A stretch of 64,000 bases of DNA from positions 5,474,501-5,538,500 of the forward strand of contig NZ_CP136051.1 of assembly GCF_032999765.1 (NCBI RefSeq). The letters are read 5' to 3'. The position numbers and the translations under genes are program-made. The stretch comes from Imperialibacter roseus. Lineage in GTDB: Bacteria; Bacteroidota; Bacteroidia; Cytophagales; Cyclobacteriaceae. Each line of letters starts with the position of its first letter. Position 1 is the first letter of the stretch. The notes under the pieces are model-generated. The model made no database searches. It saw only the letters and a program-made list of their open reading frames with translations, and was not told the origin of the DNA. Shown piece after piece: positions 22,054 through 34,609 of this stretch.

Positions 22054-22512
22054 CTACTGCTTTTCGGTGGCAAGTCCACTGGCGTTCCATGAAATTATTC
22101 CGCCTTCCAGCTCGAAAATTTGCTTGAAGCCCAACTCTTGAAATACTTTGGCTGCCCTGGCGCTCCTGCCTCCTACCTTACAGTAAACTGCAACCGGCTT
22201 ATTCGGGTCAAGCTTAGCGGCCATCTCCTCAAAATTGACGGTGTTGTAATCGATATTTATTGCATTGGGTATTTTGCCGGTAGCTACCTCCCCCGCTGTT
22301 CTCACATCTACAAGCTGAACTTCGGCTTCCTTCACTTTCTCAGCAAAGTCTGGCGCATTAAGCTGAACAATTTTTGCGGATGTCTGACCTGCTGGCTTGG
22401 TAACCACTTCCGAGGCAGCCTCCTTCTCAGTGGAAGACGAGCTGCATGCTGTGCCTATGGCTGAAACAAAAAGAAAAGCTAGCGATGCAACAATGTTTGT
22501 ACTGGTTTTCAT
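22054..22512 (-). CDS. Rhodanese-like lipoprotein
   Basis: A 152-residue SPII lipoprotein (IGTA-C23) with a single rhodanese domain (about 45-150). The active-site loop is C111-KVGGRS and the entry motif VDVRTAGEVATGKIPNAINI is intact, so sulfurtransferase activity is possible, outside the cytoplasm. It lies between a TauE/SafE sulfur-compound exporter gene upstream and the hydroxylase gene downstream, consistent with handling sulfane sulfur or sulfite. Confidence 0.9.
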   Translation of the reverse strand: MKTSTNIVASLAFLFVSAIGTACSSSSTEKEAASEVVTKPAGQTSAKIVQLNAPDFAEKVKEAEVQLVDVRTAGEVATGKIPNAINIDYNTVNFEEMAAKLDPNKPVAVYCKVGGRSARAAKVFQELGFKQIFELEGGIISWNASGLATEKQ

Positions 22513-22627: not shown

Positions 22628-23428
22628 TCAGAATATAAGTTCTTTGGTAAGGATAAAAACAGCCATAACAAGCACGAAATAGCCAAAACCTTTTTTTAGC
22701 GCTGTCCCTGATATGAAGCGGGAAAGATACTCTCCCAGAAAAAGCCCTCCAATAGACAAACTGGTAAATATCAGCATAAATGGCCAATCGATTGGCTGGG
22801 TTCCCAGGTCACCAGTGAATCCGATCAGCGATTTGGCAGCAATGATCAGCAACGAAGTGCCGACTGCCAACTTCATTGGGATATGGGCCAGCAGCACAAG
22901 TGCAGGAATGATAAGAAAGCCGCCGCCTGCCCCTACCAGGCCCGTTAACGCCCCCACCACCAGGCCTTCCAAAGCAATCATCGGGTAATTATAGGATAGC
23001 TCCTCTTCTATCGTCTTGTTTTCCTTCTTGTCTCTGATCATCGACCAGGCAGCCACCAGCATAATGACGGCAAACAGCACCATTATTGCCAAGTCCTTTG
23101 TTACCGGAAATCCCCCCAAAGAGAAAACCGGATCCGGGATGGCAGGAATGACGAATTTTCTGGTGACAAAGACAGAAATGAAGGAAGGAATGGCGAATAT
23201 GACAGCCGTTTTAAGACTTACCAACCCTTTTCTAAGAAAGTTGACCGACCCTACCAGGGCAGTGCTGCCGACCACAAACAAAGAGTAGGCTGTCGCCAGC
23301 ACTGGGTCGATGTGAATCATGTAAACCAGCACCGGCACGGTTAGAATGGAGCCCCCTCCTCCAATTAGCCCCAGGCTAACCCCTATAAGTATTGATGCTG
23401 CAAACCCCAAAATTTCGATAACCGGCAT
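22628..23428 (-). CDS. TauE/SafE-family membrane exporter
   Basis: A 266-residue inner membrane protein with about eight helices in two halves. Each half contains a Gly/Pro repeat: GVSLGLIGGGGSILTVPVLV near the start and GALTGLVGAGGGFLIIPALV in the middle. The family exports sulfite, sulfoacetate or related organosulfur anions. ATG 23428 is preceded by a Crp-like palindrome and an imperfect -7 box shared in layout with the Ric and nos promoters, so it probably belongs to the same regulon. Confidence 0.92.
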   Translation of the reverse strand: MPVIEILGFAASILIGVSLGLIGGGGSILTVPVLVYMIHIDPVLATAYSLFVVGSTALVGSVNFLRKGLVSLKTAVIFAIPSFISVFVTRKFVIPAIPDPVFSLGGFPVTKDLAIMVLFAVIMLVAAWSMIRDKKENKTIEEELSYNYPMIALEGLVVGALTGLVGAGGGFLIIPALVLLAHIPMKLAVGTSLLIIAAKSLIGFTGDLGTQPIDWPFMLIFTSLSIGGLFLGEYLSRFISGTALKKGFGYFVLVMAVFILTKELIF

Positions 23429-23462: not shown

Positions 23463-23506
23463 CAAAAGTCTGAATAACAAAGGCGGCCGTCAGTGACTTA
23501 GATCAC
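23463..23506 (-). promoter_or_regulatory. Crp/Fnr-type operator plus -7 box driving the TauE/SafE gene
   Basis: GTGACTTAGATCAC (23493-23506) is a palindrome of type GTGA-N6-TCAC. On the minus strand GACTTTTG (23470 to 23463), one mismatch from TAnnTTTG, follows after 22 nt. The centre would lie about 41 nt before the predicted start of transcription, the class II activator position. Confidence 0.6.
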
Positions 23507-23571
23507 GCAGTCAGAAATTATGATGCACCTAGCAAATCACATCAAAAAAAAGTGACAATCTTACCCCCAGT

Positions 23572-23616
23572 ATGACTCAAGTCATAAAATAGTAGCCTTT
23601 GATGTCACCACATTTG
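23572..23616 (+). promoter_or_regulatory. Crp/Fnr-type operator plus -7 box driving the Ric/ScdA gene
   Basis: ATGACTCAAGTCAT (23572-23585) is a palindrome, flanked by T and A that extend it to 16 nt. CACATTTG (23609-23616), one mismatch from TAnnTTTG, follows after 23 nt and lies 28 nt before ATG 23645. Confidence 0.6.
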
Positions 23617-23644
23617 ACCATCAATAGTCAAAATCCAAAAACTT

Positions 23645-24538
23645 ATGGAATCTCCCATACGCATCGATGTTTCCCTTTTGCCCCCTGCAACCCGCCACGA
23701 TACCATTTTCAAAGCCTATGAAAGCCTTGACGAAGGGCAGTCGCTGGTGCTTGCCATCGACCACGATCCTCAGCCACTTTTTTACGAATTCAGCCACAAG
23801 TATCCTAAAAGCTTTGGCTGGGACTACCTTGATAAAGGGCCTGAAAAATGGCGGGTACTCATAACCCGCCAACAGTCGATCACCGACAGAATAGTGGCTG
23901 ACCTGGTCATGGAAGACCTCAGCCTGGGCAAAGTCTTCGACGCCTACGGCATAGATTTTTGCTGCCACGGCGATATTTCTCTCGAAGAGGCCTGTCGCTG
24001 CCAAAAATTGGATATCAACGAGGTGCTGGTGGCCATGAAAAAAAAGAGCGGGCCTGGTGCTTTTTGGCAGCCACATTTTGAGGAATGGTCGGTGTCTTTA
24101 CTCATTCAGTACATCCTTGAAAATCACCACAGCTGGGAAAGGCATACACTTTCCGACATCGAGGATCTCACTATCAAAGTGGCGGATCACCATGGAGCGG
24201 ACTTTCCGAATCTAAAAAAGGTAAAAGAGTTAGTCGGCCACCTTAAATACGCCATCATTGATCACTTCTTTGAGGAAGAGAATGAGCTCTTTCCAATGAT
24301 TTTGAAGGGCTCAAAAAGTGTTGAGTTGCTCAAAGAAATCGAGAAGATGAAGGTGGAGCACGCCGAAGTGGGTGCCATACTCACGGACCTCACCCTGCTG
24401 ACCAACAATTTCCAGCCTCCCCAGCAAGCATGTAGTTCATTTCGGCTGCTCTACTCAAAGCTGGGAGAGTTCAAACAGGATATTCTTCAGCATATTCATT
24501 TGGAAAACACGCTGCTCGTCGCCAAAGCTGTAGCATGA
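23645..24538 (+). CDS. ric: DUF2249-ScdA/Ric iron-sulfur cluster repair protein (di-iron hemerythrin-like)
   Basis: A 297-residue cytoplasmic protein in three parts. Residues 5-75 are a DUF2249 domain (RHDTIFKAYESLDEGQSL, IDHDPQPLFYEF). Residues 80-135 are the ScdA N-terminal domain with F-C106-C107-HG. Residues 145-297 are a hemerythrin-like bundle with H161/H162, H182/H183, H207, E211, H239 and H283/H285 as iron ligands. YtfE/ScdA/Ric proteins repair iron-sulfur clusters damaged by NO or peroxide. The added DUF2249 front is unusual compared with E. coli YtfE (about 220 residues). It stands between two Crp-like operators and a Crp/Fnr gene, just upstream of nos, which fits defence against NO made in denitrification. 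Confidence 0.92.
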   Translation: MESPIRIDVSLLPPATRHDTIFKAYESLDEGQSLVLAIDHDPQPLFYEFSHKYPKSFGWDYLDKGPEKWRVLITRQQSITDRIVADLVMEDLSLGKVFDAYGIDFCCHGDISLEEACRCQKLDINEVLVAMKKKSGPGAFWQPHFEEWSVSLLIQYILENHHSWERHTLSDIEDLTIKVADHHGADFPNLKKVKELVGHLKYAIIDHFFEEENELFPMILKGSKSVELLKEIEKMKVEHAEVGAILTDLTLLTNNFQPPQQACSSFRLLYSKLGEFKQDILQHIHLENTLLVAKAVA

Positions 24539-24602
24539 CAATAATTCACAGCTGGTAAGGTTGTGTTAAAATACAAAGCACAAATCTTACTAAATTGGCA
24601 CC

Positions 24603-25196
24603 ATGTCAATGATTCCTGAAGAGTTGCTTACGACGTTTGGTGCGAGAAAAGTTAAGCTCAACAAAGACGAGTTTCTGTTTGCAAAAGACACCGAGGCGCA
24701 TTTTTATTATCAGGTTTCGATCGGCACAATCAAAATGGTTAACTACAACTACGATGGCCAGGAGTTTATTCTAGGCATGTTTAAGGCTGGGCAAAGCTTT
24801 GGTGAACCTCCCATTTTCGGCCACTTTCCCTACCCGGCCAATGCTGTGGCTGTGGAAGATTGTGAAATATGCAAGCTGCCCAAAGACAACTTCTTCAGGC
24901 TTTTGGAAGCCAATTTTGATATCCATCGCAAATTCAACTACGAGCTTTCCAACAGGCTGCGCTACAAGGGAATGATTTTATCAGAGGTATCTTCCTACCC
25001 GCCGGAGCATCGCATTCTTACGCTCGTCAACTATTTGAAGGCGATGATGCCCAACCAGGATCTTTTCACTGTGCCATACACAAGGCAGCAGCTAGCCGAC
25101 ATGACAGGGCTGCGGGTAGAAACGGTGATCCGCACCATCAAAAAAATGGAGCAGGAGGGCAAAATTAAGCTCAAAAGCCACAAAATAGTTGTCTAA
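24603..25196 (+). CDS. Crp/Fnr-family transcriptional regulator
   Basis: A 197-residue regulator: cyclic-nucleotide-binding-like beta roll (about 15-115), dimer helix (about 115-135), and a C-terminal winged helix RQQLADMTGLRVETVIRTIK. The recognition helix keeps the Glu and Arg (V-E-T-V-I-R) that in Crp/FNR read the TGA half-site, which matches the palindromes found nearby. It lacks the N-terminal cysteine cluster of FNR, so it does not sense oxygen by a 4Fe-4S cluster. It probably senses NO or nitrosative stress, as DNR/NnrR-type members do, but the ligand is inferred from the neighbouring nos genes. Confidence 0.88.
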   Translation: MSMIPEELLTTFGARKVKLNKDEFLFAKDTEAHFYYQVSIGTIKMVNYNYDGQEFILGMFKAGQSFGEPPIFGHFPYPANAVAVEDCEICKLPKDNFFRLLEANFDIHRKFNYELSNRLRYKGMILSEVSSYPPEHRILTLVNYLKAMMPNQDLFTVPYTRQQLADMTGLRVETVIRTIKKMEQEGKIKLKSHKIVV

Positions 25197-25360
25197 TACC
25201 ATTTGCACTGAAAACCGCCGCCGCAGTAGGTTCAGCGGACTGAATTTGCCTTTCTCAAGGGCCAATATCTCTCGTTTTTCCGGCCTTGTCCCTCAACGAA
25301 ATCCATTCTAACTATCAATTTTTCAGGTAGTTAAAATTTTATGGAAAATCATGCTACTAT

Positions 25361-25405
25361 ATGATTTAGATCATAAAATGGGTGGGCAGGCTCAGTCTAC
25401 CTTTA
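25361..25405 (+). promoter_or_regulatory. Crp/Fnr-type operator plus -7 box driving the nos operon
   Basis: ATGATTTAGATCAT (25361-25374) is a palindrome and TACCTTTA (25398-25405), one mismatch from TAnnTTTG, follows after 23 nt, 25 nt before the cytochrome gene. The rest of the 233-nt gap after the regulator gene shows no convincing terminator. Confidence 0.65.
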
Positions 25406-25429: not shown

Positions 25430-25906
25430 ATGAAAAAGTATTTTTTGAAAGCGTTCATATTCGCATTGCCCCTATCGATCATCCTCGCTAGCTGCGGAGA
25501 AACCAAAAAGAAAGACATCTCAGATTTCCAGGCAAAGCCAACAGAACAAGAAACCGCTAAAGCCTCAGACCCTCTGAAGAATAAAGGAGTAGGGCCTGTA
25601 AAAAGCGTTACGCTGGGAGAAATTGACCAGGCACTTGCAGATGCAGGCAAGGCCATTTTCGACGCCAACTGTACTGCCTGCCACAAGGTCGACAAAAAAT
25701 TCATTGGCCCATCCCCAAAAGACATCCTTAGCCGAAGATCTCCCGAATGGGTAATGAATATGATTCTCAACCCTGAGGTGATGATTCAGGAGGATCCGAT
25801 TGCTAAGCAATTGCTGGCAGAAGCCAACGGAGCACCTATGGCCAACCAAAACCTCACAGAGGAACAAGCCAGGCAGGTACTTGAGTACTTCCGAACCCTT
25901 AAATAA
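25430..25906 (+). CDS. Lipoprotein cytochrome c, electron donor candidate for NosZ
   Basis: A 158-residue lipoprotein (ILAS-C22) with one class I heme site C81-TAC-H85 and the distal methionine M137 in GAPMANQNL. The fold is the short mono-heme cytochrome c domain (about 65-158) tethered by a 40-residue linker. It is the first gene of the nos operon, 25 nt after a Crp-type promoter. In clade II nos clusters, c-type cytochromes carry electrons to NosZ; that role is inferred here from position. Confidence 0.9.
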   Translation: MKKYFLKAFIFALPLSIILASCGETKKKDISDFQAKPTEQETAKASDPLKNKGVGPVKSVTLGEIDQALADAGKAIFDANCTACHKVDKKFIGPSPKDILSRRSPEWVMNMILNPEVMIQEDPIAKQLLAEANGAPMANQNLTEEQARQVLEYFRTLK

Positions 25907-25913
25907 TCACTCT

Positions 25914-26480
25914 ATGAAAACACCCTTGAAATTTCTAGCCTTTGGCCTGATCACGCTCGTCGTGGCGAGCTGTTCGACGCCAACCAATAAGACCGAAGAG
26001 GCCGGTGCAGTAGCTGACGCAACGCCAAAAGGACAAGCTTCAGTGGTCGACGATGAATCTGCCAAGAACATCCTGCAAGTAGCCGCTTCATCGCCCGACC
26101 ATACCACACTTGTGGCGGCTGTCACCGCTGCTCAAATAGAGCATGTGCTGGTTAACGCAGGCCCACTTACCGTTTTTGCCCCCAATAATGCTGCCTTTGA
26201 AAAATTGCCAGCCGGGACTGTCGAAAATCTGCTAAAACCAGAGAACAAAGCACAGTTGGCTACGATTCTGACGAGGCACGCAGCACCAGGTTCCTACGAT
26301 GTGGCAGCGCTGAAAAAAATGGTAGCGAAAGGCCGCACGCTGTACATGGCCACCGGAGATTATCTTGAAGTAACCGTGGATGGAGACGACGTGCTGATCA
26401 ACGGGTGTAAAATCATTGGAACAATAAATACATCAAACGGAATAATCAATGTGGTGGATCAGGTGATCCTGCCAAAATAA
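25914..26480 (+). CDS. Fasciclin (FAS1) domain lipoprotein in the nos operon
   Basis: A 188-residue lipoprotein (VVAS-C20) with one FAS1 domain (about 50-188). H1 and H2 motifs are visible: GPLTVFAPNNAAFEKLPAGT and, at the C-terminus, NGIINVVDQVILPK. FAS1 domains usually mediate adhesion or protein contacts. Here the gene is 7 nt after the cytochrome and 3 nt before nosZ, so it must be co-expressed with them; a role in the outer or periplasmic N2O reductase assembly is possible but unproven. The frame is open upstream to 25800, but ATG 25914 opens the signal peptide. Confidence 0.9.
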   Translation: MKTPLKFLAFGLITLVVASCSTPTNKTEEAGAVADATPKGQASVVDDESAKNILQVAASSPDHTTLVAAVTAAQIEHVLVNAGPLTVFAPNNAAFEKLPAGTVENLLKPENKAQLATILTRHAAPGSYDVAALKKMVAKGRTLYMATGDYLEVTVDGDDVLINGCKIIGTINTSNGIINVVDQVILPK

Positions 26481-26483
26481 CCT

Positions 26484-28454
26484 ATGAACGTAAAAACTAT
26501 GAAAAAGCAACATATTATAAATAAGCTGTTTGCTCTGGTCGTTTTGGCCGGGGTTGTTACTTCGTGTGGCAGCAGCGAGAATTCAAAAGGAGCGCTGGGC
26601 AGCGACGTTGCCTCTCAGGCATATGTCACGCCAGGCGAACACGATGACTTTTACGCCTTTATGTCAGGCGGGTTCAGTGGACAAATATCCGTTTACGGCT
26701 TGCCTTCGGGCCGTTTGTTCAGGGTGATCCCGGTGTTTTCGCAGGATCCTGAAAAAGGATATGGCTACAACGAGGAAACCAAACCTATGCTCGAAACTTC
26801 GTTTGGCTTTGTGCCCTGGGATGATGCTCACCACCCCGAGCTATCTCAAACTAACGGTGTTCCCGATGGCCGGTGGATCTTTATCAACGGCAACAACACA
26901 CCACGTATCGCACGAATTGATCTTAAAACATTCGAAACCGCCGAGATCATAGAGATACCGAACAGCGGTGGTAACCACAGTTCTCCATTCACAACAGAGA
27001 ACTCAGAATATATTGTGGCCGGCACCCGATTCAGTGTGCCTTTTCCCCAGAAAGACGTAGCCATCGACACCTACAAAGAAAACTTCAAAGGCACCCTCAG
27101 CTTTATCAGTGTAGCCGAAGATGGTGACATGGACGTGGCCTTTCAAGTGCTGCTGCCTGGCTATGACTACGACCTTGCTCATGCGGGCAAAGGCAAGTCA
27201 CATGGCTGGATGTTCTTCACTTCCTATAACACGGAAGAGGAGCATACACTTTTGGAAGTCAACGCTTCACAAAGAGACAAGGACTATATAGCCGCTATCA
27301 ACTGGAAAAAAGCTGAAGAGTATATGGCTCAGGGCAAATTTAAAGAAATGCCTGCCAGCTATGTGGATAACCACTATGACGAAAGCAAGCAAATGGCCTT
27401 CTCAGAAACAAGGAACACTGTAAAAGTGCTGATCCCTTCAGAGTGCCCTGGCCTGGTGTATTTCCTTCCCACGCCAAAATCACCACACGGTGTAGACGTT
27501 GACCCCACCGGAGAATTCATCGTAGGCAATGGCAAGCTTTCCAGCGACATGAGTATTCACTCGTTTGATAAAATGATCAAGGCGATTGAAGGTGAGAAAT
27601 TCGAAACTACTATCGACGGCATTCCCATCCTTCAGTACGAAGAAGTGTTGAGCGGCATTGTGGCTCAACCAGGTCTGGGGCCATTACACACCGAGTTCGA
27701 CGGAAAAGGCAACGCCTATACATCGTTTTTTATCTCATCGGAGATTGTAAAGTGGAACCTGGAAACAAAGGAAGTGCTTGACAGAGTGCCAGCCTACTAC
27801 TCTATCGGTCACTTGATGATCCCCGGTGGCGACTCCAAAAAGCCCTGGGGAAAATATGTGGTGGCTCTTAACAAGATCACAAAAGACCGGTTTCTGCCCA
27901 CTGGCCCTGAGTTGACACAATCAGCTCAACTTTACGATATCTCGGGCGAAAAGATGAAACTGATTCTTGATTTCCCAACGATTGGCGAGCCGCACTATGC
28001 GCAAGGCATCGCCGCCGAGCTCATTGCACCCAATTCGCTGAAGTACTATAAGCTGGAAGACAATAACCACCCCCACGCTATGAAGTCACCCAACGACTCA
28101 CGTATAGTGAGAGACGGAAATGTGGTTCGGGTGTATATGGGTGCTATCAGAAGTCACTTTACTGTTGACAACCTGGAAGGGATCAAAGTAGGTGACAAGG
28201 TCTACTTCCACGTGACCAACCTTGAGCAAGACTGGGACGTCCCTCACGGCTTTAGCGTGATGGGTGCCAATAATGCAGAATTGTTGATCATGCCCGGCCA
28301 AACCGAGACCCTACTCTGGGAACCACAACGGGAAGGGGTTTACCCTTTCTACTGCACCGACTTCTGTTCCGCCCTTCACCAGGAGATGCAGGGCTATGCC
28401 CGGGTATCGGCCAAAGGCGCCACCACCGAGCTCAAGTGGAGCTTAGACGAATAA
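26484..28454 (+). CDS. nosZ: Nitrous oxide reductase, clade II, lipoprotein form
   Basis: A 656-residue copper enzyme that reduces N2O to N2. It has a Sec lipoprotein signal (VVTS-C28) and no twin-arginine motif, the mark of clade II NosZ in Bacteroidota. The seven-bladed propeller holds the CuZ histidines (seen in DDAHHPEL, GNHSSPF, AHAGKGKSHGW, SPHGVDV, PLHTEFDGKGNAYTSFFIS, EPHYAQ, NHPHAMKSP). The C-terminal cupredoxin has the CuA ligands H588 (VPHGF), C624, C628, H632 and M635 (CTDFCSALHQEM), all intact. A second ATG at 26499 is possible. It is flanked by cytochrome and FAS1 genes upstream and nosL-D-F-Y downstream. Confidence 0.97.
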   Translation: MNVKTMKKQHIINKLFALVVLAGVVTSCGSSENSKGALGSDVASQAYVTPGEHDDFYAFMSGGFSGQISVYGLPSGRLFRVIPVFSQDPEKGYGYNEETKPMLETSFGFVPWDDAHHPELSQTNGVPDGRWIFINGNNTPRIARIDLKTFETAEIIEIPNSGGNHSSPFTTENSEYIVAGTRFSVPFPQKDVAIDTYKENFKGTLSFISVAEDGDMDVAFQVLLPGYDYDLAHAGKGKSHGWMFFTSYNTEEEHTLLEVNASQRDKDYIAAINWKKAEEYMAQGKFKEMPASYVDNHYDESKQMAFSETRNTVKVLIPSECPGLVYFLPTPKSPHGVDVDPTGEFIVGNGKLSSDMSIHSFDKMIKAIEGEKFETTIDGIPILQYEEVLSGIVAQPGLGPLHTEFDGKGNAYTSFFISSEIVKWNLETKEVLDRVPAYYSIGHLMIPGGDSKKPWGKYVVALNKITKDRFLPTGPELTQSAQLYDISGEKMKLILDFPTIGEPHYAQGIAAELIAPNSLKYYKLEDNNHPHAMKSPNDSRIVRDGNVVRVYMGAIRSHFTVDNLEGIKVGDKVYFHVTNLEQDWDVPHGFSVMGANNAELLIMPGQTETLLWEPQREGVYPFYCTDFCSALHQEMQGYARVSAKGATTELKWSLDE

Positions 28455-28524: not shown

Positions 28525-29580
28525 ATGAAAGTTAAATTCAATTACCTTTTCTTGCTGGCCATACTTTTGCCGCTTGCATTGTTTGCTTTTCCGCTATGGA
28601 AAATCACGCTACAAGCTCCCCAATACCCTGACGGTATTTCTATGTATATCTGGATCAATCAGATAACAGGGGACTCGCCCAGCACATTGCAAAATATCAA
28701 CATCCTCAACCACTACGTGGGCATGCAATTCATCGTACCCGACTCAATTCCTGAGCTGAAATATTTCCCCTGGATTGTAGGTGGCATGTCGCTTTTGGGG
28801 CTGCTGTTCTTCCAGATAAAAAAGAAATCACTCTACCTCACCTGGGCCATGATTATGATTGTCCTTGGAGGCCTCGGTGTCTACGACTTCTACCTCTGGG
28901 AATACGACTATGGGCACAATCTCAGCCCTAAGGCACCCATCAAAGTACCCGGCATGGCTTATCAGCCACCTGTAATTGGCTCGAAAATGCTGCTGAATTT
29001 TAAGGCTGACTCCTGGCCGTCAACAGGTGGCTACTTCCTTGGAGCAGGCATAGCACTTGCTCTCCTGGCATTTTGGCTTGAGAAGAAGAAAGCTAGCAAA
29101 ACAGCAGTGCTTGAAAAGGCCATGGCAATGATCGCTCTTATAACCATTTTTGGCCTCACGTCCTGCTCGATAACTCCACGCCCCCTTGCTCTGGGCAGCG
29201 ACCATTGTCATCATTGCAAAATGAAGATCGTACAGCCACAATATGGAGCTGAGCTGGTTTCCAGCACTGGCAAAATCTATACCTTCGACGCTGTGGAGTG
29301 CCTTGTGCAATATGCAGACGAAAACAAGATAAGTGCTGAGAATATAGCCTTTGAAATGGTGGTGCCCTACGACCAGCCAGGCACACTTATGGATGCGGCC
29401 AAATGCGTTTTCATCAGAAGTGCCAAGCTACCAAGCCCTATGGGCATGTACATCACAGCGTTGAGCTCCAAGTCCAAAATTGAGCCCATTATTGACGGAT
29501 ACGATGGAGAAATATATACTTGGGAGAAACTTCAATCAGGCATAGACAACCTGCCTGGCATTACCGCCCAGCTCCCATGA
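28525..29580 (+). CDS. nosL: Membrane domain fused to NosL copper-chaperone lipoprotein
   Basis: A 351-residue fusion. The N-terminal part has helices at about 7-24, 83-99, 104-121 and 169-185, with loops outside between them. A second signal-like helix 199-213 ends in an internal lipobox LTS-C214, after which a complete NosL domain follows (215-351) with the copper-binding DHC228HHC231KM. NosL delivers Cu(I) for the CuZ site of NosZ. The N-terminal part looks like the separate small membrane protein found near nosL in related clusters; function unknown. The stop overlaps the nosD start (ATGA). Confidence 0.9.
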   Translation: MKVKFNYLFLLAILLPLALFAFPLWKITLQAPQYPDGISMYIWINQITGDSPSTLQNINILNHYVGMQFIVPDSIPELKYFPWIVGGMSLLGLLFFQIKKKSLYLTWAMIMIVLGGLGVYDFYLWEYDYGHNLSPKAPIKVPGMAYQPPVIGSKMLLNFKADSWPSTGGYFLGAGIALALLAFWLEKKKASKTAVLEKAMAMIALITIFGLTSCSITPRPLALGSDHCHHCKMKIVQPQYGAELVSSTGKIYTFDAVECLVQYADENKISAENIAFEMVVPYDQPGTLMDAAKCVFIRSAKLPSPMGMYITALSSKSKIEPIIDGYDGEIYTWEKLQSGIDNLPGITAQLP

Positions 29581-30842
29581 GGTTTCCTAGTCGTTTCATC
29601 ATCCCATTTTTAGTTATCGCCACCTTTCAGGCCTTGGGTGCAGTGCCCGACACCCTGGAGGTGGGAAAAAAATACGCTTCAATCAAGCAGGCGCTGGCCG
29701 CAGCAGCATCAGGAGACGTAATAAAGGTGTTTCCTGGTGTGTACTTTGAAAACGAGGTGATCATTGACAAGCCATGCACCCTGTTGGGTGTGGGCTACCC
29801 CATTCTTGATGCCGGTCTTAAGAACGATGCGATCATTATCAGGGCGGATTCCGTCAGTATCATAGGCTTTCATATCCGAAACGTGGCCACCAACTATGTG
29901 AGAGACCTGGCGGCCATTCACGTGGAAGAAGCCCGGCACTTCAACATTCAGGACAACAAACTTGAAAACACCTTCTTTGGTATTTACCTGCAAAAGAGTC
30001 GGGACGGCAGGGTCGCCGGAAACTCCATCATCGGGCAGGCAGTGGTTGAAGCCAGCTCAGGCAATGCCATCCACCTTTGGTATTGCAAAAATGTAGACGT
30101 AAGTAACAACGAAGCCCGCCACCACAGGGATGGTATCTATCTGGAGTTTTCCGATAGCATCCGTATAGTGCGCAATGTGAGCCAGGACAACCTGCGGTAT
30201 GGCCTCCACTTTATGTTCTCAAATTACAATGATTACCTCGAAAACACCTTTCAGTCTAACGGTGCCGGAGTAGCGGTTATGTTTTCCTCTCAGATTGTGA
30301 TGAAGCGAAACAGGTTTATCGACAATTGGGGCAGTGCTTCTTATGGCATACTGCTCAAGGAAATTAAAGACGGGCTGATCAGCAACAACCTTTTTCAGGG
30401 CAACACCATCGGTATCTATGGAGAAAGCTCTGACAGAATGACCATCAGCCAAAACGATTTTACTGAGAACGGATATGCACTGCGAATACTCGGGAGCTGC
30501 AGAGACAACATTATTACCGAGAACAATTTTATAGACAATACCTTTGACGTAGGCACCAACGCCACCAGACAGTACAACCAATACACAAGAAACTACTGGT
30601 CGGAGTATACTGGTTACGACCTCGACAAAAATGGCGTGGGCGATGTGCCCTACCGGCCTGTGAAGCTTTTCTCTTTTGTAGTAGAAAAGGTGCCACAAGC
30701 CATTGTGCTCCTTCGAAGTCTTTTTGTTGATCTCATGAATTTCACTGAAAAAGTGACGCCGGTGTTCACGCCGCAAAACCTGTTCGACGATCAGCCACTT
30801 ATGAAACCTCATCCCCATGATCAATATTCAACATCTTCATAA
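29577..30842 (+). CDS. nosD: Periplasmic copper-processing protein NosD
   Basis: A 421-residue exported protein with a signal peptide (ending FQALGAVPD). The body is a right-handed parallel beta-helix of the CASH/NosD family: repeats such as NAIHLWYCKNVDVSNNEA, HRDGIYLEFSDSIRIVRN and GIYGESSDRMTISQNDFTE. The C-terminal NYWSEYTGYDLDKNGVGDVPYRP is the typical NosD end. NosD works with NosF/NosY in maturing CuZ, probably supplying sulfide or copper. ATG 29577 overlaps the nosL stop; the frame is open to 29520 but lies within nosL. Confidence 0.95.
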   Translation: MRFPSRFIIPFLVIATFQALGAVPDTLEVGKKYASIKQALAAAASGDVIKVFPGVYFENEVIIDKPCTLLGVGYPILDAGLKNDAIIIRADSVSIIGFHIRNVATNYVRDLAAIHVEEARHFNIQDNKLENTFFGIYLQKSRDGRVAGNSIIGQAVVEASSGNAIHLWYCKNVDVSNNEARHHRDGIYLEFSDSIRIVRNVSQDNLRYGLHFMFSNYNDYLENTFQSNGAGVAVMFSSQIVMKRNRFIDNWGSASYGILLKEIKDGLISNNLFQGNTIGIYGESSDRMTISQNDFTENGYALRILGSCRDNIITENNFIDNTFDVGTNATRQYNQYTRNYWSEYTGYDLDKNGVGDVPYRPVKLFSFVVEKVPQAIVLLRSLFVDLMNFTEKVTPVFTPQNLFDDQPLMKPHPHDQYSTSS

Positions 30843-31542
30843 GTCCTTTGGCAAACTGGAAGTGCTGAAGGACGTCCAACTGGAAATTCTTCCCGGAAAG
30901 GTAACCGCTGTGTTAGGACCCAACGGCTCTGGAAAAACCACCCTGATGAAAAGCATTCTGGGTATGACCCTACCTGATAAAGGAACTATCGAGGTAAGAG
31001 GCGAGCCTACCCGCCATGCATGGAACTACAGGAAACACCTGAGCTATGTGCCACAAATTGCACAGTTTCCCTCTAACCTCACAGTGCAGGAGCTGCTACA
31101 AATGATCAAAGAAGTGCGGCAGGAGCCCGCCAACGAGGGTTCCTTGGTCGACCGGCTTTCTCTTCAGCAGTTTCTCGACAAAAAGCTCGGGACGCTCAGT
31201 GGTGGCACCCGGCAAAAAGTGAACCTGGTACTTGCCCTCATGTTCGATGCGCCCATTGTGCTGATGGACGAGCCTACTGCGGGGCTTGACCCCGTAGCGT
31301 TGCTGGCACTGAAGCGACTGATACAGGACATGCGCAAGGCAGGAAAGTGCATCTTGGTCACCACGCATATCATGCCACTCGTGGAAGAACTGGCTGACGA
31401 AATCGTGTTCCTGCTAGATGGCAAGGTGTACTTCCAGGGAAGCCTGAGCGAGCTGTTTTCACTTACTGAAAAGAACACACTGGAAGAAGCCATCGCTCAT
31501 TTTCTCATTCAACGGAAGGACAGAACGTCCGTCAACGCTTAA
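30817..31542 (+). CDS. nosF: ABC transporter ATP-binding protein NosF
   Basis: A 241-residue ABC ATPase: Walker A GPNGSGKTT (about 33-41), Q-loop SYVPQ, signature LSGGTRQKVNL, Walker B IVLMDEP with the D-loop TAGLD, and switch His in TTHIMP. It powers the NosDFY complex. It overlaps the nosD end by 26 nt, an arrangement that couples translation. Confidence 0.95.
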   Translation: MINIQHLHKSFGKLEVLKDVQLEILPGKVTAVLGPNGSGKTTLMKSILGMTLPDKGTIEVRGEPTRHAWNYRKHLSYVPQIAQFPSNLTVQELLQMIKEVRQEPANEGSLVDRLSLQQFLDKKLGTLSGGTRQKVNLVLALMFDAPIVLMDEPTAGLDPVALLALKRLIQDMRKAGKCILVTTHIMPLVEELADEIVFLLDGKVYFQGSLSELFSLTEKNTLEEAIAHFLIQRKDRTSVNA

Positions 31543-32337: not shown

Positions 32338-33399
32338 ATGAAATCAAAGCTCCCCTTCTTTGCGTTGGCGCTTATCGGGCTGCTGTCGGGAATTTGGGCT
32401 GGCTTAATCAGAATCGGCTTCAACCTGCCTGCTGTTGACCTGGCGACACTACACGGGCCGCTCATGGTGGGTGGCTTTGTGGGCACCCTGATTGGGGTAG
32501 AAAGAAGTCTGCTCACCGGCAATGGCAAATGGTGGCTCATTCCTGCGTTCTCGGGTGCGGCGGTCATTGCCTGGCTCCTCGGCTTTCAGCAGGTGGCTCC
32601 CTATTGCCTGGTGGCTGCTTCCGCATTGCTGGTTTTGCTGCAGGCTATTCACCTGCTGTCGTCCCGGCTCACGTGGGTCAGTATTGTCCAGCTTTGCGGT
32701 GCCCTGTGCTTTGCCGGTGGCAATATTCGCTTGTTGTACAATCCGCTAATGCCTGCTATCATCCCTTTCTGGATGGGCTTTGTACTTTGCTTCATCTTGG
32801 CCACCCGGCTCTCGGAAAACTCAGCAAAAAACATGTTCACGGGAAGCGTGATCAAGTTGGGGCTGATCCTGTTTATTGCCAGCCTGATGATTCCATTTCA
32901 CCTTGGTGGCTACTATCTCACGGGAGCAGGTCTGATTTTAATTGCATCTGGCATGTTTTTCATCGAGATCCAAACAGATCAGGGCATGGGCTGGAGCTAC
33001 GAAAAGTATTCGTTCATTGCCATCATGCTAGGCTGGTTTTGGCTGCTCACATCCGGCGTTGGTGTTATTCTGTGGAAGGAGCACATTTACGGCTACGATG
33101 CCACCACGCATTCGTTCTTTGTCGGCTTCCTTTTCTCCATGGTATTTATTCATGCCCTGGCCAAGGCTTCCTACCTTGCAGGCCTGGGCGCCCCTCCTTT
33201 TCACCCAGTGCTTTTTGTCTGGCTTATCCTCCTGTCTGCCTCTCTGTTGCTAAGGGTCTTCGCAGTCGATATTCTGCTTCTCACGACCGTAAAAAAATGG
33301 AGTGGTCTGCTCAATGCCATTAGCATACTGGGTTTTCTGTTGACCCTTATTAGTTTTACATTGATCAGAAAATATCGTTCTGCTCATGAGTCGGTTTGA
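32338..33399 (+). CDS. Polytopic membrane protein, NnrS-like
   Basis: A 353-residue protein with about ten to eleven transmembrane helices. Histidines occur within or next to helices: TLHGPLMVGGFVGTLIGVER, AIHLLSS, IPFHLGGYYL and TTHSFFVGFLFSMVFIHALAK. This set resembles the heme-copper NnrS proteins that protect against NO during denitrification. It starts 1 nt after nosY and overlaps the next gene by 14 nt. The assignment rests on topology, histidines and context, not on a decisive motif. Confidence 0.6.
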   Translation: MKSKLPFFALALIGLLSGIWAGLIRIGFNLPAVDLATLHGPLMVGGFVGTLIGVERSLLTGNGKWWLIPAFSGAAVIAWLLGFQQVAPYCLVAASALLVLLQAIHLLSSRLTWVSIVQLCGALCFAGGNIRLLYNPLMPAIIPFWMGFVLCFILATRLSENSAKNMFTGSVIKLGLILFIASLMIPFHLGGYYLTGAGLILIASGMFFIEIQTDQGMGWSYEKYSFIAIMLGWFWLLTSGVGVILWKEHIYGYDATTHSFFVGFLFSMVFIHALAKASYLAGLGAPPFHPVLFVWLILLSASLLLRVFAVDILLLTTVKKWSGLLNAISILGFLLTLISFTLIRKYRSAHESV

Positions 33400-34609
33400 T
33401 CCTGGCAAGTTTGCCCGTTTCCCTTTACTATATCTCGTCGCCTTATCCGCCCTTGGGCTGCTACTTCGCTGGCAAATGGTAAGCCCGCTGCCCATCAACT
33501 ACAGGTATTTTGTGCATGCCCACTCCCACACTGCCTTCATGGGGTGGGTATACAATGCGCTGTTTCTTCTCATGCTCCAACATTTTGTGGCCAAAGAAAA
33601 CAATGGCAAACTGTTCCGGGGCTGCTTTATCGCCCTGCAGATAGGCGTGCTGGGCATGCTGGGCAGCTTTCCCTTTCAGGGCTATGGCCCCGTGGCAATT
33701 GCCTTCAGCACGCTCCACATGGCAGTGACCATCGCCATTGCCGTATCAATATTCAAAGTGATAAGGGACGATAGCAGCCTTGCAGCAAGCTTTTTGCGCT
33801 GGGCACTGGTGTATGAGCTTATTTCGGGTGTCGGGCCACTGATGCTGGGCCCGCTTTCGGCCATGGGCTTAAAAGACAGCTCGTTCTACTCACTATCCAT
33901 CTACTTTTTTATGCACTTCCAGTTCAATGGCTGGTTTGTGCTTGCCTGCCTGGCCATGCTATTCAGGCTGCTGGAAAGAAGCGGCTGGAGCCTTGCCGAC
34001 ACTGAGAGGAAATGGCTCAAATACACCCTGCTGTACACTGTTGGGCCAGCCTATGTCATGAGCGCCTTGTGGACCGATCTGGGCGACTGGAAATATCTGT
34101 TGGCGATGGCTACCGGTGTCTTACAAATAGTCGGTGTCCTGCTATTGCTTAGGTTTGTTTGGAAGCACCTGAAGCAAAATTTACCAGTGCCCTGGGCCAG
34201 AAAGTGCCTTCAGTTAGGCATTACGCTACTCACCGTGAAATACTTTTTGCAACTGGCAGGCAGCATTCCCGGTATCGATAGCTGGGTGATGGCAAACAAT
34301 GGGATCATCATTGCCTTTATCCACTTGATTTTTATTGGCGTGGTTAGCTTTATGCTGCTGGGATTCTACATTTTAGGGGGCTGGTTGCACCTCAATGCCA
34401 TGTCAAAAACCGGAATATTGGTCTTCTTTGGTGGTTTTGCCATCACCGAAATAGCACTTGCTGCACTACCTTCTTTTTCGTTGGTGGGGCTTTCTGCTCA
34501 TTTTTCCTATTTTGAAACACTGGTGGTGGCAGCCGCCATGCTGTTGATCGGCAGTGTGTTAATGGCATTGGAAGTCAAACGGTTACAGGCTCAGCAGGCA
34601 ATATTTTAA
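33386..34609 (+). CDS. Polytopic membrane protein, heme-copper oxidase subunit I-like
   Basis: A 407-residue protein with about 12 helices. Conserved-looking histidines at helix ends are VHAHSHTAFMGWVYNALF, TLHMAVT, FFMHFQFNGWF and FIHLIFIGVVSF, a layout like the heme ligands of heme-copper oxidases and NorB but without the full HPxVY/HH copper site. Annotations of similar Bacteroidota proteins often read cytochrome oxidase subunit I-like. Last gene of the nos operon; it may bind heme and work with the NnrS-like partner in NO or N2O metabolism. Confidence 0.6.
   Translation: MSRFDPGKFARFPLLYLVALSALGLLLRWQMVSPLPINYRYFVHAHSHTAFMGWVYNALFLLMLQHFVAKENNGKLFRGCFIALQIGVLGMLGSFPFQGYGPVAIAFSTLHMAVTIAIAVSIFKVIRDDSSLAASFLRWALVYELISGVGPLMLGPLSAMGLKDSSFYSLSIYFFMHFQFNGWFVLACLAMLFRLLERSGWSLADTERKWLKYTLLYTVGPAYVMSALWTDLGDWKYLLAMATGVLQIVGVLLLLRFVWKHLKQNLPVPWARKCLQLGITLLTVKYFLQLAGSIPGIDSWVMANNGIIIAFIHLIFIGVVSFMLLGFYILGGWLHLNAMSKTGILVFFGGFAITEIALAALPSFSLVGLSAHFSYFETLVVAAAMLLIGSVLMALEVKRLQAQQAIF

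Follow-up and report, generated by a model that had tools for sequence, protein, structure and literature searches.

In denitrifying proteobacteria, the DNR and NnrR regulons place the nos and NO genes under a regulator of the Crp/Fnr superfamily, and the DNR site is given as CTTGATnnnnATCAAG in the relevant section of PMC1274295. NssR of Campylobacter and NssA/B/C of Wolinella are further Crp/Fnr regulators, tied to truncated haemoglobin and clade II N2O respiration in passages of PMC8139620 and PMC11539149. Within the Bacteroidota, HcpR (Porphyromonas gingivalis and others) is likewise a Crp-family regulator of the nitrogen-oxide response, as described in part of PMC12750200. PDO, SQR, TauE-type or similar sulfur genes are controlled by FisR, a sigma-54 activator, and BigR, a repressor (Acinetobacter baumannii; portions of PMC7315123). 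In Flavobacterium psychrophilum, the TAnnTTTG box is placed at -12 to -5 (section of PMC9723704). While the promoter class, DNR, NssR, and HcpR are already known, a literature search that covered few subscription journals, and thus gives weak evidence of absence, found no paper with both Crp and TAnnTTTG, no Bacteroidota Crp/Fnr regulator of nosZ, and no Crp-type persulfide regulator.

The locus presented here is a junction in the single-contig, 6.75-Mb genome of Imperialibacter roseus, contained in a window (the whole stretch of 64,000 nucleotides analyzed, contig NZ_CP136051.1, positions 5,474,501 to 5,538,500). A TauE-rhodanese unit diverges from a gene for a Ric-like protein and a Crp/Fnr regulator, hereafter the 24603 protein, followed by a nos unit (table). 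The predicted site of this regulator has the TGAT-N4-ATCA core of the DNR site as reported in PMC1274295 (in part); the outer bases are TA..TA here and CT..AG in DNR, which sets it apart from a DNR site, and the promoters carry a Bacteroidota -7 box where DNR/NnrR systems have a sigma-70 -10. The Nss proteins belong to another phylum and are likened to the 24603 protein by their described roles. The HcpR sites wTGTGAnnnnnnTCACAw, TTGACnnnnGTCAA, and GTAACnnnnGTTAC, as listed in the pertinent part of PMC1274295, differ from the TATGAY-N4-RTCATA form found here. The nearest named genome found is that of Imperialibacter sp. EC-SDR9, whose 24603-type regulator is 97% identical.

Features of the junction, in window coordinates, with start codons assigned mechanically
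Feature	Position	Strand	Remarks
Rhodanese-domain protein	22054..22512	-	behind TauE; PF00581, E 1.1e-19
TauE/SafE family protein	22628..23428	-	PF01925, E 1.4e-40
-7 box GACTTTTG of TauE	23463..23470	-	one mismatch, offset 22; predicted transcription start ∼23458
TauE palindrome GTGATCTAAGTCAC	23493..23506	-	centre -41.5; GTGA type; predicted site of second (sulfur-linked) Crp/Fnr protein
Ric palindrome ATGACTCAAGTCAT	23572..23585	+	flanks give TATGAY-N4-RTCATA; centre -42.5; predicted 24603-protein site
-7 box CACATTTG of Ric	23609..23616	+	one mismatch, offset 23; predicted transcription start ∼23621
Ric/YtfE-like di-iron protein	23645..24538	+	DUF2249, ScdA_N, hemerythrin domains
Crp/Fnr regulator	24603..25196	+	64 nt 3' of Ric; PF00027 and PF13545; helix RVETVIR (alignment A1)
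nos palindrome ATGATTTAGATCAT	25361..25374	+	flanks give TATGAY-N4-RTCATA; centre -42.5; predicted 24603-protein site
-7 box TACCTTTA of nos unit	25398..25405	+	one mismatch, offset 23; predicted transcription start ∼25410
Cytochrome c	25430..25906	+	PF00034
Fasciclin-domain protein	25914..26480	+	PF02469
Sec-dependent (clade II) nitrous oxide reductase NosZ	26484..28454	+	TIGR04246, 932 bits, cut-off 625
Membrane protein with NosL domain	28525..29580	+	PF05573
NosD	29577..30842	+	TIGR04247, 421.7 bits, cut-off 300
ABC transporter ATPase, NosF by position	30817..31542	+	PF00005

The Ric-like protein scores 192 bits against TIGR03652, slightly below the cut-off of 204.7. Two proteins 3' of the nos genes (32338-33399 and 33386-34609) are without a Pfam or NCBIfam match, and their homologs stand directly behind a palindrome with a -7 box in two related loci (L121 and L090).

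The sequence confirms what the first-pass annotation reported, namely three palindromes followed after 22, 23, and 23 nt by a -7 box with exactly one mismatch; over offsets 0 to 59, read in the direction of the gene, none of the three has a second box with at most one mismatch. With offsets 22 and 23 chosen after the fact, the probability of three boxed sites out of three is ∼2e-6 at the box frequency of the window. The pattern RTGAN6TCAY has eight matches in the window against 3.9 expected, a number reached in 3 of 100 shuffles. Across the genome, RTGAN6TCAY is commoner than its reversed control (571 vs 316) and discriminates weakly alone, and RTGAYN4RTCAY occurs 103 times against 79; such loose patterns, hardly above their controls, are of little use as evidence. 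The strict form RTGAYYYRRRTCAY, picked after the sites were known, has eight occurrences in the genome (control 2), of which three fall in the window cluster. Three of the remaining five (L008, L035, and L041) lie in open reading frames or at their start, and one (L036) is intergenic, 5' of a peroxiredoxin, with a two-mismatch box by eye. The fifth (L037, genome C1:2640117) is an intergenic GTGATTTAAATCAT palindrome ∼3 kb from another Crp/Fnr gene (L033), for which no fitting box was found by eye. One genome alone is suggestive evidence for a spacing that is not due to chance; the pattern can be taken as non-random because the same two offsets stand out in an independent test on related loci.

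That test uses the best 80 loci of a search for regulator orthologs (1.50 Mb in total), with queries drawn from 27 regulator sequences. These nos-type loci contain 117 ATGAY-N4-RTCAT sites, while other spacers from 0 to 8 give 3 to 16. When 144 sites are scanned in both directions, a TAnnTTTG box with at most one mismatch stands at offset 22 or 23 in 91 of 287 site-directions; other offsets average 2.25 and never exceed 9. Dereplication by named genus, with all other genomes kept, leaves 58 loci and 73 boxes at 22/23 against a mean of 1.65 elsewhere, and with five control palindromes, each represented by 13 to 25 sites, no offset between 18 and 27 has more than two boxes. The count of 287, in which each site enters once per direction, is cleaner than the oriented counts, which leave out the 25 in-gene sites of the 144 and give sites with two candidate genes two rows (161 rows). 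Of the usable non-genic sites, 85 of 115 have a box at 22/23 in at least one direction, and 27 of the 80 loci have no boxed site. The extended site reads TATGAY-N4-RTCATA, and sites at offset 23 continue with AAA.

Class II Crp/Fnr geometry, which the first-pass annotation had proposed from centres near -41 to -43, is borne out at the level of predicted starts: with the box set at -12 to -5 as in Flavobacterium psychrophilum, offsets 22 and 23 in the related loci would put the palindrome centres at -41.5 and -42.5. Its suggestion that imperfect boxes make the promoters dependent on the regulator is rejected, given that the box is perfect in 37 of the 91 boxed site-directions. The dependence is better explained by a missing -33 element, as a TTG starting at -33 occurs in none of the 91 boxed rows (double rows included); six start at -31 and one each at -30 and -27. 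The same features bear on the idea that the Crp/Fnr proteins act here as repressors, which we judge extremely improbable: the sites do overlap the promoter region, and a negative relation between a Crp/Fnr regulator and nosZ has been inferred in a campylobacterial thermophile (passage of PMC11539149), but two fixed offsets and an absent -33 TTG fit an activator, and a repressor needs neither.

The genes downstream of the 91 boxed rows are Ric (18), cytochrome c (14), the regulator (11), fasciclin (3), TauE, the 32338 protein, and the 33386 protein (one each), and 42 other proteins. The last include a group III truncated haemoglobin (PDB 2ig3, E 6e-13), HemN, a B12-dependent ribonucleotide reductase, and NadA, which is an anaerobic and nitrosative gene set; hcp is absent from the downstream genes identified, which are only part of the whole. 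A conserved protein of 90-103 amino acids, apparently membrane-bound, begins 28-59 nt 3' of the palindrome in 16 loci (L093, L098, L100, L106, L108, L110, L112, L117, L128, L134, L137, L141, L142, L145, L146, and L149), and in at least five of them it is followed by the group III truncated haemoglobin. A protein of ∼600 amino acids lies behind the site in three loci (L113:11061-12878, L104:8101-9894, and L086:6276-8093); the one in L113 matches nothing in Pfam or NCBIfam.

Which protein reads the Ric and nos sites can be approached through co-occurrence. An ortholog of the 24603 protein (E < 1e-40) is present in 28 of 146 related genomes, and TATGAY-N4-RTCATA with a box turns up in 19 of them, compared with 25 of the 118 that lack the ortholog (p 4e-6; here and below, related genomes or loci are treated as independent, which makes p-values optimistic). 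The 25 ortholog-less genomes indicate that other regulators can use the site. The association is sharper upstream of nosZ, where ∼3 kb of DNA, less at contig ends, was searched in each of 56 genomes with NosZ above the family cut-off: site and box occur in 16 of 21 genomes with the ortholog vs 3 of 35 without it (p 3e-7). In two of the 16 (G033 and G097), the site is 1.9 and 2.2 kb upstream and may belong to another promoter or gene. No box with at most one mismatch is present in five of the 21; in four of these (G025, G029, G016, and G065), a palindrome is accompanied by a box with two mismatches. In I. roseus itself, there are eight sites with NANNTTTN at 22/23 (control 3), two of which (L244 and L248) are inside open reading frames; the only promoters of the A..T type among the eight are those of Ric and nos, so the 24603 regulon looks local here.

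The core palindrome with a perfect box, flanks ignored, separates genomes poorly as a marker, with 23 of 28 against 52 of 118 by hand count; its reversed control is found in 5 of 146 genomes. In ortholog-less genomes such as G079, G030, and G052, many of the core palindromes that have a perfect box at 22/23 run into T-rich DNA and not TCATA, a hint of one more Crp/Fnr regulon built to this geometry.

These 52 ortholog-less genomes could also speak for another Crp/Fnr paralog that reads the Ric and nos sites. In I. roseus, 20 places score above the cNMP-binding family cut-off, and two paralogs have E and R at the matching helix places (PESVIR and IETLVR). We nevertheless consider a paralog very unlikely to be the reader since site and box upstream of nosZ track the ortholog of the 24603 protein. 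The part of the first-pass annotation in which this protein regulates Ric and nos is retained as likely on comparative grounds, with its own gene probably included in the Ric unit; for TauE, with its GTGA half-sites, it is not.

The 24603 protein has a Crp fold (AlphaFold2 mean pLDDT 89, pTM 0.67), and its best PDB profile match is DNR (E 2.9e-24), only slightly above CRP (E 2.4e-22). In a fold search, the 50 matches listed were CRP-like proteins, DNR was absent from them, and no ligand was indicated. Alignment A1 of 27 regulator sequences, from which the partial L065 was left out, has no cysteine among its invariant or nearly invariant columns, in disagreement with an FNR-type iron-sulfur protein. 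In CRP, Arg82 holds the cAMP phosphate; the residue aligned to it, Pro78, is invariant in the 27 sequences, at odds with a cAMP receptor of the CRP type. Without a conserved cysteine and with proline in place of Arg82, the protein is taken to fall outside both the iron-sulfur FNR type and the canonical cAMP receptors. NO through heme is a guess at its ligand.

The TauE palindrome is of another class, GTGAY-N4-RTCAC with half-sites GTGA..TCAC, while Ric and nos have TATGAY-N4-RTCATA. GTGA-type sites at offset 22 elsewhere in the genome precede two metallo-lactamase-rhodanese (PDO-like) genes and one thioredoxin, with two perfect boxes and, at one PDO-like gene, a box with two mismatches; a further GTGA-type site precedes a 1-Cys peroxiredoxin, with a two-mismatch box by eye. 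One of the PDO-like genes is directly 3' of a second Crp/Fnr gene (genome C1:1864320-1864967, L204), whose protein has homologs (E up to 1e-15) in 110 of the 146 related genomes. In 30 loci of this family (L335-L364), the palindromes are 19 G..C and 1 A..T, compared with 6 G..C and 117 A..T in the nos-type loci (p 2e-17). There are 14 boxed G..C site-directions at 22/23, which by hand count fall in 10 of the 30 loci. The order regulator, site, TauE, PDO is found in five (L337, L340, L341, L343, and L345), where TauE is 55-62% identical to that of the window; the window's own TauE, by contrast, has the second regulator gene at a great distance.

The two families also differ in the recognition helix. 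Arg180 of CRP contacts the outer G; in its column the nos type has Val, and all 30 loci of the second family have Arg. In 27 of the 30, the sensor domain of the latter carries a C-x5-C pair, as expected of a thiol sensor, which makes the family a candidate Crp-type reactive-sulfur sensor.

The first-pass annotation had assigned all three units to one regulon under the 24603 protein, and this is not borne out, as the TauE palindrome belongs with the GTGA sites seen around the second Crp/Fnr family, whose gene is next to TauE and a PDO-like gene in 5 of 30 loci. A single regulon in which the outer base is not discriminated would account for the core and spacing common to three sites within 1.9 kb, beside the regulator, and for 21 mixed sites (A on one side and C on the other, or the reverse) in the nos-type loci. 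It is unlikely in our estimation in view of the rarity of G..C sites in the nos-type loci, where one of the six is the same TauE site in EC-SDR9, and their prevalence near the other family, neighbor of TauE in relatives. Most likely, TauE came to the junction with its own switch, on which the 24603 protein may act too.

With two half-site classes tied to two regulator families, the junction probably holds two parallel class II regulons, and we are fairly confident that two separate Crp/Fnr regulons meet in this one divergent intergenic region. For the first, we infer that the 24603 protein would bind TATGAY-N4-RTCATA as a dimer centred at -42.5, replacing the missing -33 element, and would respond to NO or N2O. 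It would activate Ric and with it the regulator gene, in a positive loop, as well as the cytochrome c-fasciclin-nosZ unit. For the second, GTGAY-N4-RTCAC at -41.5 in front of the TauE-rhodanese unit would be read by the Crp/Fnr protein of genome C1:1864320-1864967, a predicted thiol or persulfide sensor that would respond to reactive sulfur and also serve the PDO-rhodanese and thioredoxin genes. The sulfur genes proposed for it resemble those of FisR and BigR, although the putative regulator is a Crp/Fnr protein. The residue at the Arg180 place, Val or Arg, probably sets the outer base as A/T or G/C through a residue-base contact.

The chances seem to us evenly balanced that, in the Bacteroidota at large, Crp/Fnr activators replace the -33 element at fixed positions of -41.5 or -42.5 and that a Val/Arg code for A/T or G/C separates their regulons, one of them run by a Crp/Fnr reactive-sulfur sensor. 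If this outer-base code is true, the Crp/Fnr regulons of the phylum would be readable from sequence. Clade II N2O reducers, including those of the Bacteroidota, are important as an N2O sink, but how their nos genes are controlled has been little studied. The junction offers a regulator, a site of 16 bp, and a promoter geometry, all open to direct testing, and with them a rule for finding Crp/Fnr targets in this phylum, whose promoters are of a type of their own. Nitrogen-oxide and sulfur responses would be told apart here even though one junction is common to both.
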